From contig NZ_AWNH01000112.1 of the NCBI RefSeq assembly GCF_000482245.1, forward strand, positions 186,001-250,000: a DNA stretch of 64,000 nucleotides. Reading direction: 5' to 3'. The stretch comes from Leptolyngbya sp. Heron Island J. Its GTDB lineage: Bacteria > Cyanobacteriota > Cyanobacteriia > Phormidesmidales > Phormidesmidaceae. The notes beneath the pieces were generated by a model. That model was not told the origin of the DNA, made no database searches, and saw only the letters and a program-made list of their open reading frames with translations. Numbering within the stretch: the stretch's first letter is position 1; each line of letters opens with the position of its first letter. The position numbers and the translations under genes are program-made. This document shows, piece by piece, positions 25,126-28,951 of this stretch.

Positions 25126-25212
25126 ATGCCTATAAAGCGATCTTCACTCCTACTGTCACAGCAAAACTTAGTGGCTAATTTAGGAACACGTCAGTCTATT
25201 GCTTGTCACTAA
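25126..25212 (+). CDS. Candidate 28-residue ORF
   Basis: ATG at 25126 follows AAGGAG with a five-base spacer and encodes MPIKRSSLLLSQQNLVANLG and eight more residues. The ribosome site is excellent, but there is no homology I know of and the product is too short to judge. It could be a leader peptide, a small protein or chance. Confidence 0.22.
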   Translation: MPIKRSSLLLSQQNLVANLGTRQSIACH

Positions 25213-25279
25213 CAAGCACTCCAAGCCCTACTTGCATCCTAAAAATTAGCAACGTTAAAAACTTATAGAATTCGGATAA

Positions 25280-25402
25280 TTAACAACAATCAGCTTTGCA
25301 GCCTGGCTGATGCTTGACCTTGCTCCACAAAGACAACACCAAGCTGGTAAATAGCTCGATACGCTGCGTTCTCATGGCTGTCATCGAAGATAGAACGATC
25401 AT
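25280..25402 (-). CDS. Candidate 40-residue small protein
   Basis: ATG at 25402 follows AGGAG with an eight-base spacer. The product has a moderately hydrophobic middle (IELFTSLVLSLWSKV) and ends with a cysteine-rich tail (GCKADCC). No family is recognised. It lies 56 bases downstream of another small candidate on the same strand. Confidence 0.35.
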   Translation of the reverse strand: MIVLSSMTAMRTQRIELFTSLVLSLWSKVKHQPGCKADCC

Positions 25403-25458
25403 GGTGAAGTCTCCTCTCAAAATGGGGTGGTCAGTACTTAGTTCAAAGGATTGTTGAG

Positions 25459-25605
25459 TTAATCAGTACTGCTGTTAGCGCCTTTTAACTCAATCAACAG
25501 TTTGGTTGCGTTATCCTTGTTTTCCTTCTTCTTTGGCTTAGGAGTCACCACCTCTGCAAAGAGAAAAAATGCTAAACAAACTGTAAAAAATGGTAAAAAT
25601 GGCAT
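25459..25605 (-). CDS. Candidate 48-residue single-helix or secreted small protein
   Basis: The ATG at 25605 has GGAG nine bases upstream. Residues 1-20 (MPFLPFFTVCLAFFLFAEVV) form a strong hydrophobic helix. A lysine-rich segment follows (TPKPKKKENKDN) and then a polar end. This is the look of a small membrane-anchored protein. No family is known to me. It is on the same strand as, and downstream of, the CHASE2 kinase operon. Confidence 0.4.
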   Translation of the reverse strand: MPFLPFFTVCLAFFLFAEVVTPKPKKKENKDNATKLLIELKGANSSTD

Positions 25606-25878
25606 TGCACAAGCTCCAGAACCCAGGATAAGGAAGCGGCTCGCAGCAGGCAGTGATACAAATCATCTGGCGGTGTAATTATGACACAGATGTAAATCAA
25701 CTAACCAAGCAAAAAAGTAAGCCGAATCACTGAGGTTTATCGAACAATTACACAATAGCCAAGAGTTTTCATCAAAACAATTTGCTTTTATGCAGACCTC
25801 TGTCAGCTTTTCTCCAGCTTTCTCACATCTTCTCTCTAAAGGCCTTTAAACTTTTCTACAAAGCTGAGCAAACTTTAC

Positions 25879-25916
25879 TAAAAAAACGTGGTGATTTCAT
25901 ATGAAATCACCACGTT
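25879..25916 (-). terminator. Perfect 32-base palindrome with T-run, probable terminator
   Basis: AACGTGGTGATTTCAT and its exact reverse complement meet at 25900/25901. On the minus strand the structure is followed by seven T (bases 25880-25886 on plus are A). It begins 33 bases after the stop of the small secreted ORF at 25949-26128 and probably terminates it. The absence of any spacer at the centre is unusual. Confidence 0.75.
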
Positions 25917-25948
25917 ATGTGATTTAAATCATTTCGATTTGGGCCATG

Positions 25949-26128
25949 CTAGTGCGTAGAACCAGTTCTCCTATTATCATCAGGCTGTCCTGAATCCGGT
26001 GGCACTGGAACAAAATCCGCTTTAGCTGATTGGCCAATCACAGAAACAATTGGCAACGCAACCAATGTAGCCACAAAAATATGTAGCCATAGTCGCTGAG
26101 TCACTCTTAAAGTAGTCGTTTTAATCAC
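25949..26128 (-). CDS. Small secreted protein, about 59 aa, DUF928-like motif
   Basis: The frame opens with a basic stretch, followed by a hydrophobic helix (LWLHIFVATLVALPIVSVIG) and the signal-peptidase-like site SAKA-D. The mature peptide is only about 22 residues (DFVPVPPDSGQPDDNRRTGS plus TH). The proline/aspartate/RRTG pattern resembles the beginning of cyanobacterial DUF928 secreted proteins as I remember them. AAGGAGG overlaps the GTG at 26128, so the exact initiator (GTG 26128, or GTG 26104 after it) is unsettled. It is 163 bases downstream of the CHASE2 kinase on the same strand, with a terminator-like palindrome after it. Confidence 0.55.
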   Translation of the reverse strand: MIKTTTLRVTQRLWLHIFVATLVALPIVSVIGQSAKADFVPVPPDSGQPDDNRRTGSTH

Positions 26129-26291
26129 CTCCTTTTTCTAACTTGTAAGTGACACTTATTCATACTTATTTTTAACTATAAATCAGACAGTTCTATATAA
26201 ATATGCACATATTTCTTCTAGTCCTTATATGATTTTTTGAGTAAAAGAACTCTTTGACCAATTGATATTTATTGTTTTATTGAACGGAGAT

Positions 26292-28262
26292 TTAAGAAAA
26301 AATTGGAAAAGTGAGCTGGCAGAAAAACCCTTTAGGTTTATTGGGCCTATGAATAAATTTTCCCTTAGTTATTTTTTCAACTTCTTTACCTATTCGTGTG
26401 CCTTCTCCGGTGCTTGCTTCACTAATATTTGCGCCAGGACCATTATCTGCAACAGTTAGCTCATAGCAGTTATCTTTTCTTTTTCCAGTAACAACTAGGC
26501 GTGTAGCTCCAACAGCATGCTTGCCTACGTTACCCAAAGCTTCTTCTAAAAACCTACATAGCTTTCGTTTGGTCTCAATACTAATCATTTCCGATTCAAT
26601 AGGGTCAAAAGATATGATTGTAAACTTAAGATCAGAAAACCCAAGAAATGGCCTTGAAAGCATGGCATCATAAACTTCTTGAAATAACTCTTGCAGAGGA
26701 ATGTCAAGGTCAAACTTAGTGCCAGCATAGCTAACATCAAGGCTATGCTTTTGGTCATTGGCATCTTGCTTAATGGATTCACCAATATAACGAATTTCTC
26801 GATTGAGATCTTCTAAGCTAAGACAGATATCCGATAGATTGATGGTCTCATCTCGACTTCTACGCAGTAGATTAGCTAGCGTTTGTAAAGGCCCATTGTG
26901 AATAGAGTCGAACACATTTTCAATAGTTTTTTTACGCTCAAGGGCTAGTTTTTCAGATAGCTGACGTTCATTGTCAAGCGCTGAGTCCAGCTGATCAATT
27001 AGTTTTATCCAACGACGTTTATTCTGAGCGTAGTTGATATAAACCAGGCCATTGGCTGTTGTGGCAACGAGAGTCGCTGACAGGGGTAGCCATAGACCGA
27101 TACGGAGCAAGAAAAGATAGCTCAGTAAAATACCTGCCAAAATAGTCAATAACAAGCTGATAAAACCGCTAATGGTGTCTTTTGAGAATCGGCCACAGCT
27201 AAGACCGAGAATGGCAAAAAATATCAAAAATACAGCTTGTATGGTTTGCTCTGTCCAGATAAGCGGTCTTTGAGACTCGATAGCTTGAACGATTTGGCTG
27301 ATGATGTGGGTTTGAATTGCGACGCCACTGACTAGTGGGGAAGCATCTAAAATACGATTAAATGCGCTAGATGGAATTACTAGATCTTGAGATAGGCCTG
27401 CCAGACTGAGAATAATGATCCTATTTTTTATAAGTTCATTTTTTTTCTCGTCAGACTCTAACAGATCACTTGCTTTAATTACGTCAAAGGGCTGTGGACT
27501 GCTTCTATAGTTAATTAAGGTTTGAATACCATAAGCTTGTTGGCCAGTGTATCCATAAATATCTGTGATTCTAGGAATTTCGCGAGACCCAAAACGCATC
27601 GTCTCCGGGTCTTTAATTCCATTTTCTAGCTTAATGATTGCATTATTTGCAATTTGAGCTTTGCTAATAAAGTGTGCTCGGGCGACTTGAATTGCAAAAG
27701 ATGTTTGAAAACTCTCAACCTCATCGTTGAGGAAAAACCCTAGTAACGCTCGACGAACGGTGCCATCCCTGTCGATTAGTAGGTCATTAAAACCAACCTG
27801 ACTAGTCAATTGCTCATCAGTGAGCCCAGCTAACGGCTCTGCTGGATTGGAGGAATAATTGTTAACCGTTATCAGACTTGGATATTGCTTCACCACCGAT
27901 AGGAGTCTATCGCGGTTATCCCCTGAAATTCGATAGGAAACGATATCTGCACCTACTACTGTTGGTTCATTGGCAAAAATAACATCTAAGATGTTGGCTA
28001 AAGAATCTACAGAAATCGTGTATCCCTTTTCAGCAGAGCCATCAACATGAGGCGGGTCAATTTGAACAATCGTAATATCTTCATCAGGTGCTTCAACTGA
28101 GAGTTGAGTATTTAGCGTTAGGAATCTATCCAACACCATTAATTCCAGAGCATGAAAAGCTCCCAAGGTTCGAGCACTCAAAACTGTCAAAATAATCCCC
28201 AAACCCCAAAGGCTCGTTCTCAGAGCATCTAAGGTTTTTCCCCAGCGAGTTGGTTCTTCCAT
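26292..28262 (-). CDS. CHASE2-domain sensor histidine kinase
   Basis: This 656-residue protein has an N-terminal helix and then an extracytoplasmic CHASE2 domain at about 40-320 (VVGADIVSYRISG, DRDGTVRRALLGF, LINYRSSPQPFDVI). Three membrane helices follow at about 340-435. A NarL-type transmitter has the phospho-acceptor region VFDSIHNGPLQTL near residue 452 and an ATPase with N-box FLEEALGNVGKHA and G-boxes VADNGPGA and GEGTRIG. It autophosphorylates on histidine in response to an unknown external signal and should pass phosphate to the upstream regulator. The start overlaps the regulator stop (TAATG), so the two are coupled. Confidence 0.92.
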   Translation of the reverse strand: MEEPTRWGKTLDALRTSLWGLGIILTVLSARTLGAFHALELMVLDRFLTLNTQLSVEAPDEDITIVQIDPPHVDGSAEKGYTISVDSLANILDVIFANEPTVVGADIVSYRISGDNRDRLLSVVKQYPSLITVNNYSSNPAEPLAGLTDEQLTSQVGFNDLLIDRDGTVRRALLGFFLNDEVESFQTSFAIQVARAHFISKAQIANNAIIKLENGIKDPETMRFGSREIPRITDIYGYTGQQAYGIQTLINYRSSPQPFDVIKASDLLESDEKKNELIKNRIIILSLAGLSQDLVIPSSAFNRILDASPLVSGVAIQTHIISQIVQAIESQRPLIWTEQTIQAVFLIFFAILGLSCGRFSKDTISGFISLLLTILAGILLSYLFLLRIGLWLPLSATLVATTANGLVYINYAQNKRRWIKLIDQLDSALDNERQLSEKLALERKKTIENVFDSIHNGPLQTLANLLRRSRDETINLSDICLSLEDLNREIRYIGESIKQDANDQKHSLDVSYAGTKFDLDIPLQELFQEVYDAMLSRPFLGFSDLKFTIISFDPIESEMISIETKRKLCRFLEEALGNVGKHAVGATRLVVTGKRKDNCYELTVADNGPGANISEASTGEGTRIGKEVEKITKGKFIHRPNKPKGFFCQLTFPIFS

Positions 28263-28951
28263 TAATCCAGCAGCCCCCGCTCGCGAGCCCGAATCTCAGT
28301 CAGACTGCGCAGGTTTTTGCCATCTTTTTTGTCAATTTCGGGGTCAATTTCTAGAACATCGTAGAGTTTGTTCCAGTAGTGACGAATAGTGCTGGGCTGT
28401 ACGTTGAGCTCTTGGGCAATCGCTTTGTCTTGAAGCCCTTCGTGAAAAGCCAAGGTAAGCACATCTAGCCATTCAGGTTTGAGTTCCACACCCGCCTGCA
28501 GCGCTTTGATACCTCGGGTGTGGCTAAAGCCCTTGAGAGCACCATCGACTCGTTGAAAAATGTCCTGACTGGACATACTTTTATCAACAATGGTAAACCC
28601 ACCCTGGTGGCTGTCAATTTCTGATCTGACTCTCACGAGAGCTTTAATATACGTGCTTTGTACAGCAATATTCTGCTCAGGGTAATGTTTCATCACCTGC
28701 CTGAGTAGCTCGATGCCAGTTTCTACCTTGGCATCCTGATGATAAGCCTCAGGAATAGATAAATCCAAAATAACCAGACTGAGGCGATGATTGGCTAGTT
28801 GCTCTAGGGTTTCTTGAGCTGTTTTAGCTGTCAAAAGCTCATAGGTTGGATAATGCTGACGCAGAATATCGATAGTGCCACTCAGCACCACTTGATGATC
28901 ATCAACGATCAGAATCTTACCGGTAGGTGCTTCGTTGCTTGTGGGGCCCAT
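28262..28951 (-). CDS. LuxR/NarL-family response regulator
   Basis: This 229-residue protein has a receiver domain at about 12-140 with acidic pair DD at 17-18, phospho-acceptor Asp63 in LVILDLSIPE and a conserved lysine in IVDKSMS. It ends with a helix-turn-helix (LAFHEGLQDKAIAQELNVQPSTIRHYW) near 165-206. It is the first gene of the operon with the CHASE2 kinase. The stop and the kinase start share a base. Likely targets are unknown. The small secreted ORFs downstream are candidates by position only. Confidence 0.92.
   Translation of the reverse strand: MGPTSNEAPTGKILIVDDHQVVLSGTIDILRQHYPTYELLTAKTAQETLEQLANHRLSLVILDLSIPEAYHQDAKVETGIELLRQVMKHYPEQNIAVQSTYIKALVRVRSEIDSHQGGFTIVDKSMSSQDIFQRVDGALKGFSHTRGIKALQAGVELKPEWLDVLTLAFHEGLQDKAIAQELNVQPSTIRHYWNKLYDVLEIDPEIDKKDGKNLRSLTEIRARERGLLD

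Follow-up and report, generated by a model that had tools for sequence, protein, structure and literature searches.

A predicted exported peptide encoded beside a CHASE2 histidine kinase in Leptolyngbya sp. Heron Island J resembles the N-terminal tag of DUF928 proteins

Organization of the locus

We analysed a 64,000-nucleotide stretch of the Leptolyngbya sp. Heron Island J genome (contig NZ_AWNH01000112.1, positions 186,001 to 250,000; the window), in which a response regulator and a histidine kinase carrying CHASE2, a common bacterial extracytoplasmic sensor domain, are followed on the same strand by three short frames. In window coordinates, the features are:

28262..28951, minus strand: response regulator, 229 aa, receiver and LuxR/sigma-4-like helix-turn-helix (Pfam Response_reg, 1.7e-11)
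26292..28262, minus strand: CHASE2 histidine kinase, 656 aa (Pfam CHASE2, 4.2e-35)
25949..26128, minus strand: frame 1, putative exported tag peptide precursor, 59 aa (congener conservation; DUF928-only HMM, E 0.044)
25952..26017, minus strand: predicted mature peptide DFVPVPPDSGQPDDNRRTGSTH, 22 aa, after A-K-A cleavage as read from the sequence (motif aligned to DUF928 N-termini)
25885..25916, minus strand: intrinsic terminator, 14-pair stem and T run, closing the regulator-kinase-peptide unit
25459..25605, minus strand: frame 2, small single-helix membrane protein with a Lys-rich tail, 48 aa (genus-restricted)
25280..25402, minus strand: frame 3, 40 aa, ending GCKADCC (genus-restricted)

The 3' end of the regulator gene overlaps the start of the kinase gene (position 28262 is common to both), and a gap of ~160 nt, in which no terminator-like site was found on the minus strand, separates the kinase from frame 1. 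The terminator at 25916-25885 sits between frame 1 and frames 2 and 3; positions 25126-25279 hold none of the three frames. From this spacing and the position of the terminator, we infer that regulator, CHASE2 kinase and peptide form an operon.

A preliminary description of this region had proposed three small peptides with ribosome sites, and the frames themselves are as described. The one credited with a signal peptide and a mature part of roughly 22 residues is frame 1, in which a 37-residue signal peptide ending ...GQSAKA (signal peptides were judged by eye from sequence) precedes the 22 residues of DFVPVPPDSGQPDDNRRTGSTH. The single hydrophobic helix with a Lys-rich tail is frame 2 (25605-25459), which begins MPFLPFFTVCLAFFLFAEVVTPKPKKK..., and the frame ending in cysteines is frame 3. 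Conventional ribosome sites were found for two of the three: GGAG lies 8 nt before the ATG of frame 2, and GAGGAG lies 8 nt before the best start of frame 3 (ATG 25402 rather than TTG 25420; end at 25280). Frame 1, however, has its GTG start inside its own extended Shine-Dalgarno sequence (AGGAGGTGAT, 26124..26133, minus strand; longer stretch AAGGAGGTGATTAAAACG, 26117-26133), which is kept in congeners. An ACG codon at 26119-26117 follows the GGAGG by 8 nt, likewise in six congeners, and Leptothoe kymatousa (L132) has a TTG at about the same spacing from its Shine-Dalgarno; a non-standard start codon is possible for frame 1. Two further conserved elements, each present in several congeners and each a possible regulator site, flank the frame: a TGTCACTTA stretch ahead of its ribosome site (about 26140-26165) and a palindrome, TGATTTAAATCA, directly 3' of its stop (about 25915-25945).

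The kinase consists, in order, of a first transmembrane helix, the CHASE2 ectodomain, three transmembrane helices, an H-box (IHNGPLQTLA, with His455) and a HATPase domain, and it thus has the CHASE2 domain between membrane helices, the phospho-His motif and the ATPase domain of a CHASE2 sensor histidine kinase. The HATPase domain has a Pfam score of 0.00036, short of Pfam's cut-off, and His455 and the ATPase residues are invariant. An AlphaFold model (pLDDT 80) has the same topology of one helix, CHASE2 ectodomain and three helices, which would place the ectodomain in the same compartment as a Sec-exported peptide. The kinase half resembles DesK/VraS/DosS (kinase fold Z 15); among solved structures, sequence comparison matched only the ATPase part, and the matches of a whole-kinase fold search were filled by kinase domains. 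Judged by a crude pattern, 74 of 79 related kinases have a response-regulator-like ORF upstream, and the Heron Island J genome contains 20 CHASE2 matches.

Conservation of the short frames

Among the related records are those of Leptothoe kymatousa, Leptolyngbya cf. ectocarpi LEGE 11479, Adonisia turfae and Leptolyngbya sp. PCC 7375. Frame 1 adjoins the kinase in seven of eight genus genomes, that is, in all seven that have the kinase; the eighth (G006, 70% complete) gave neither a kinase match nor the peptide. The mature part is variable among congeners, with a small residue first, then [YF]-x-P, a D-x-G core and R, H or Y as the last residue. For all three frames, dN/dS was lowest in the true frame and well below 1 rather than near 1, with medians of 0.31 for frame 1 (0.95 and 1.26 in the two shifted frames), 0.21 for frame 2 (0.49 and 1.90) and 0.19 for frame 3 (1.25 and 0.69); these are within-genus Nei-Gojobori medians from short sequences with synonymous sites near saturation, and the values are rough. 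A single phase of the complementary strand likewise gave low values (0.36, 0.44 and 0.28 for frames 1, 2 and 3), as it did for the kinase (0.19, against 0.04 in its true frame); such values are expected of that phase. That frame 1 is coding and linked to the kinase is well supported by these comparisons.

Frames 2 and 3 occupy the same place and order in four other congeners, and in a fifth they lie together on a separate contig. Neither was found in other genera in a search of 242 genomes of the class, where one outside match to frame 3 (G266) falls within a UbiA-like frame. They are candidates for real small proteins under purifying selection and restricted to the genus, and they are probably a unit separate from the kinase operon. 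A three-peptide system was rejected: frames 2 and 3 lie past the terminator, were found in no other genus among those 242 genomes and do not follow the kinase, whereas the kinase-peptide pair is widespread. The earlier idea of a secreted peptide functionally tied to the CHASE2 kinase is supported for frame 1, by conservation, synteny, dN/dS and co-occurrence with the kinase far outside the genus, but not for a cluster of all three frames. Searches of Pfam and NCBIfam with all three frames returned nothing above chance. A frame 1 profile was clearly significant across the order only within the genus; its weak matches in other genera gain meaning because they were later seen to adjoin kinases.

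A tag shared with DUF928 proteins

Within the order, relatives of the kinase from other genera have, directly downstream, either a short exported peptide or a DUF928 (PF06051) protein. The short peptides carry a related motif (ADYVPQGGDPPPGRSSTSG, ADYVPPGGEPPTGRTSTSGMRL and AGYRPPYDQGYPPTYDRTDSSSR), as do the mature N-termini of the DUF928 proteins (YEPPPTSRAPRRTVGGGTRGGC and ANYTPPKDADAPSGSTGSSGVRGC). Like the window gene, DUF928 genes come immediately after a kinase of this kind and encode a Sec signal followed at once by the tag motif [YF]-x-P-P ... P ... G-x-R. Unlike them, the window gene stops where the domain would begin and has neither a domain nor a Cys: its peptide had no Pfam match at E ≤ 1, PF06051 included, and tblastn of the window region revealed no DUF928 remnant. 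Matches to PF06051 begin, for the most part, close to where the tag ends, so that model leaves out most of the tag.

A genome-wide scan yielded 80 more kinase loci across cyanobacteria; DUF928 lies directly downstream of the kinase at about half of them and elsewhere in the examined stretch at only one. We then built an HMM from 43 DUF928 N-terminal segments, with no short peptide included, and searched 19,110 six-frame ORFs (18,343 of them short) from these 80 loci and the window. All 28 short-ORF matches at E < 0.4 are on the kinase strand and within 1 kb downstream, a zone holding ~5% of all short ORFs, and their starts range from 2 nt before to 969 nt beyond the kinase stop; because the loci are related to one another, the matches are not independent and we claim no exact probability. 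One of the 28 (L196) is the N-terminal part of a DUF928 frame that is broken. The window peptide is matched weakly (E 0.044, rank 22 among short ORFs), and all short ORFs that score above it also adjoin kinases. It has the signal peptide and, weakly, the motif of a DUF928 N-terminus, and it belongs by position to the short exported ORFs found on the same strand directly downstream of CHASE2 kinases. Because the score alone is weak, we count it in the tag family on its position and the intermediates. With a mixed profile that included the window peptide itself, that peptide was the sole short match in the whole genome (E 1.4e-16).

Across 36 DUF928 proteins, conservation of the tag equals or exceeds that of the domain behind it (mean 61% versus 55%), and an Arg directly precedes the invariant first Cys in 35 of the 36. 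In a DUF928 structure model the tag has fair confidence (pLDDT about 75-87); such an ordered tag may be packed on its own domain or be a segment held for a partner. The model weakly resembles beta-sandwich adhesin domains (TMq 0.26-0.30), and no sequence relative of DUF928 was found among solved structures.

The association of DUF928 with CHASE2 extends beyond kinases of the window type. Eight of the ten DUF928 genes in Heron Island J adjoin a CHASE2 gene (contigs C18, C46, C49, C22, C53, C63, C70 and C84), a proportion with a probability of the order of 1e-16 under a crude model of random placement, and DUF928 also adjoins CHASE2 genes that the search for the window kinase type did not return. 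On C18, C46, C49 and C22, the DUF928 gene is located before, not after, the CHASE2 gene. Tagged DUF928 proteins are also found away from CHASE2, namely the other 2 of 10 in this genome and several elsewhere. The CHASE2-DUF928 neighbourhood has been noted in a Nostoc genome (PMC5587647), and within the open-access literature we found one paper that mentions DUF928 and none that mentions PF06051.

Several loci depart from the usual layout. Some combine a tag peptide with a DUF928 gene or have two tandem tag peptides (L149, L196, L072 and L183). The L196 contig, labelled Chloroflexaceae, carries the kinase, a tag peptide and the broken DUF928 frame, through either misbinning or transfer, and at L261 (4396-5289, minus strand) a DUF928 gene is split between tag and domain into two overlapping frames by a frameshift or sequencing error. 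A Nostocales-type tag peptide, AAYQPPDDQKPPKDSSDALQSKTINQ (L259, 5039-5237, plus strand), has no CHASE2 gene within 5 kb and is an orphan or decaying copy. A small protein whose C-terminal domain is NfeD-like follows the tag peptide in a number of other genera (L068, L069, L070, L071, L072, L073, L083 and L208) and is a possible further operon member; Pfam NfeD matched at 6.5e-12 in L071, and the remainder were judged by eye.

Partner type along the kinase tree

Among 114 distinct CHASE2 kinases with readable downstream DNA, 63 are followed by DUF928, 28 by a short peptide, 2 by both and 21 by neither; the last group indicates that a tag in cis is not a universal requirement. In the kinase tree (quick search, midpoint-rooted drawing), a branch with SH-aLRT support of 96 separates 26 kinases, including that of the window (23 with peptide, 2 with both and 1 with none), from 87 others (63 with DUF928, 20 with none and 4 with peptide). 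The peptide label was more clustered on the tree than in all 500 shuffles.

The four peptide cases in the DUF928-rich group are Nostocales and are nested among DUF928 bearers. At these loci, the match between the short gene and a neighbouring DUF928 covers signal peptide and tag (tblastn 1e-10 to 1e-23) and no DUF928 domain is left, so that on sequence comparison these genes are clearly DUF928 genes cut back to signal peptide and tag. In Iningainema (L164) and in L260, whose kinase is closest to the Nostocales, the stop codon (TGA or TAA) directly follows the same Arg, the last residue of SSGVR. The two differ in their nearest DUF928-bearing relatives, which suggests two separate truncation events. 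Some short forms extend past that Arg (L158, L181 and the group of L135, L143, L159, L160 and L168).

Discussion

Comparison across genomes demonstrates that frame 1 is conserved and under selection as a protein, that it is linked to the kinase and that its motif is similar to that of the DUF928 N-terminus. Our main reading, to which we give a probability of roughly one half, is that DFVPVPPDSGQPDDNRRTGSTH acts as a free-standing DUF928 tag, a ligand or obligate accessory of the window CHASE2 kinase. The 59-residue precursor would be exported by Sec and cut after A-x-A, releasing approximately DFVPVPPDSGQPDDNRRTGSTH into the compartment of the CHASE2 ectodomain. The ectodomain would recognize the tag, presented on a DUF928 carrier in most systems and as a free peptide in this one, and the bound tag would set kinase activity toward the regulator, either up or down. 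If the tag is the part that matters to the CHASE2 ectodomain, this would explain most simply why the DUF928-CHASE2 linkage is dedicated, why the DUF928 domain has repeatedly been lost with the exported tag kept, and why an old kinase clade has the tag alone. Counting against a ligand are the tagged DUF928 proteins away from CHASE2, the orphan peptide at L259 and the fairly ordered tag of the DUF928 model, which may pack on its own domain instead of a receptor. More tentatively, and with somewhat less confidence, the proposal may extend to the family: DUF928 tags and free peptides could be the cognate CHASE2 ligands of cyanobacteria, either borne by DUF928 (and perhaps released at the Arg) or secreted, with repeated switches between the two forms.

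The peptide could instead be the output of the two-component system, acting elsewhere on the matrix, on neighbours or as a cell-cell signal. The regulator-kinase-peptide gene order and the predicted export suit such a role, and the TGTCACTTA stretch that several congeners conserve ahead of the peptide might serve in regulation, but an output role does not account for the peptide's match to the N-terminal tag borne by a CHASE2-partner protein, or for the way in which partner type follows the kinase clade; we regard it as unlikely, and the link to DUF928 tags leads us to favour a role at the sensor. A free peptide might also compete for the place on the DUF928 domain where the tag normally docks, tuning the other CHASE2-DUF928 pairs of the cell. 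The tag is predicted to be ordered in the DUF928 model and Heron Island J has 10 DUF928 genes, yet over large distances the peptide gene travels with one kinase and not with DUF928 genes, which makes competition rather improbable.

Two readings deny the peptide a function. Frame 1 as a remnant of a lost DUF928 gene has precedents in the clear truncations of Nostocales and in losses that appear complete (the 21 of 114 kinases without a partner); it is very unlikely given the within-genus dN/dS, which is about 0.3 against values near 1 for shifted frames, and the retention of a tag peptide beside 25 of the 26 kinases of the old clade. The Shine-Dalgarno, which is of unusual length and contains the start codon, together with palindromes between the frame 1 stop and the terminator, might point to a leader or attenuator RNA element, but across genera the signal peptide and the mature motif are conserved at the protein level and the unit holds no gene after the peptide before its terminator, and we give this reading hardly any weight.

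In the peptide-pheromone two-component systems of Gram-positive bacteria, an exported peptide is encoded beside a membrane histidine kinase and its regulator. The window has the same arrangement, with export predicted from sequence, and differs in its CHASE2 sensor, Sec signal peptide and Gram-negative envelope. The Burkholderia BiofilmReg operon comprises a response regulator, a LysM-FecR protein, a CHASE2 kinase and DUF4136 (PMC5192318), and it likewise encodes a CHASE2 kinase and regulator with an extracytoplasmic partner of unknown role; its partner, however, is a large FecR/LysM protein located between regulator and kinase, and no tag peptide is described. PatS and PatX (PMC7761841, PMC12756182) are also short cyanobacterial precursors with a small polar C-terminal peptide containing Arg, Gly and Ser, but they are linked to the cytoplasmic regulator HetR, whereas the window peptide is linked to a membrane kinase. 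Identity with PatS/PatX was rejected: the RG(S/T)GR pentapeptide is absent, and C-termini in the genus read RTGSTH, RAGSTR, FGSSR and similar.

What CHASE2 senses is stated to be unknown (PMC10581220, PMC5192318), and we found neither CHASE2-linked peptides nor a CHASE2 ligand described in the open-access literature. Under our main reading, the smallest natural CHASE2 partner would be ~20 residues long, which would reduce the sensing question to the binding of a synthetic peptide. The finding also suggests what the undescribed DUF928 family may be for, and it would place a candidate route of peptide signalling alongside PatS/PatX in filamentous cyanobacteria.
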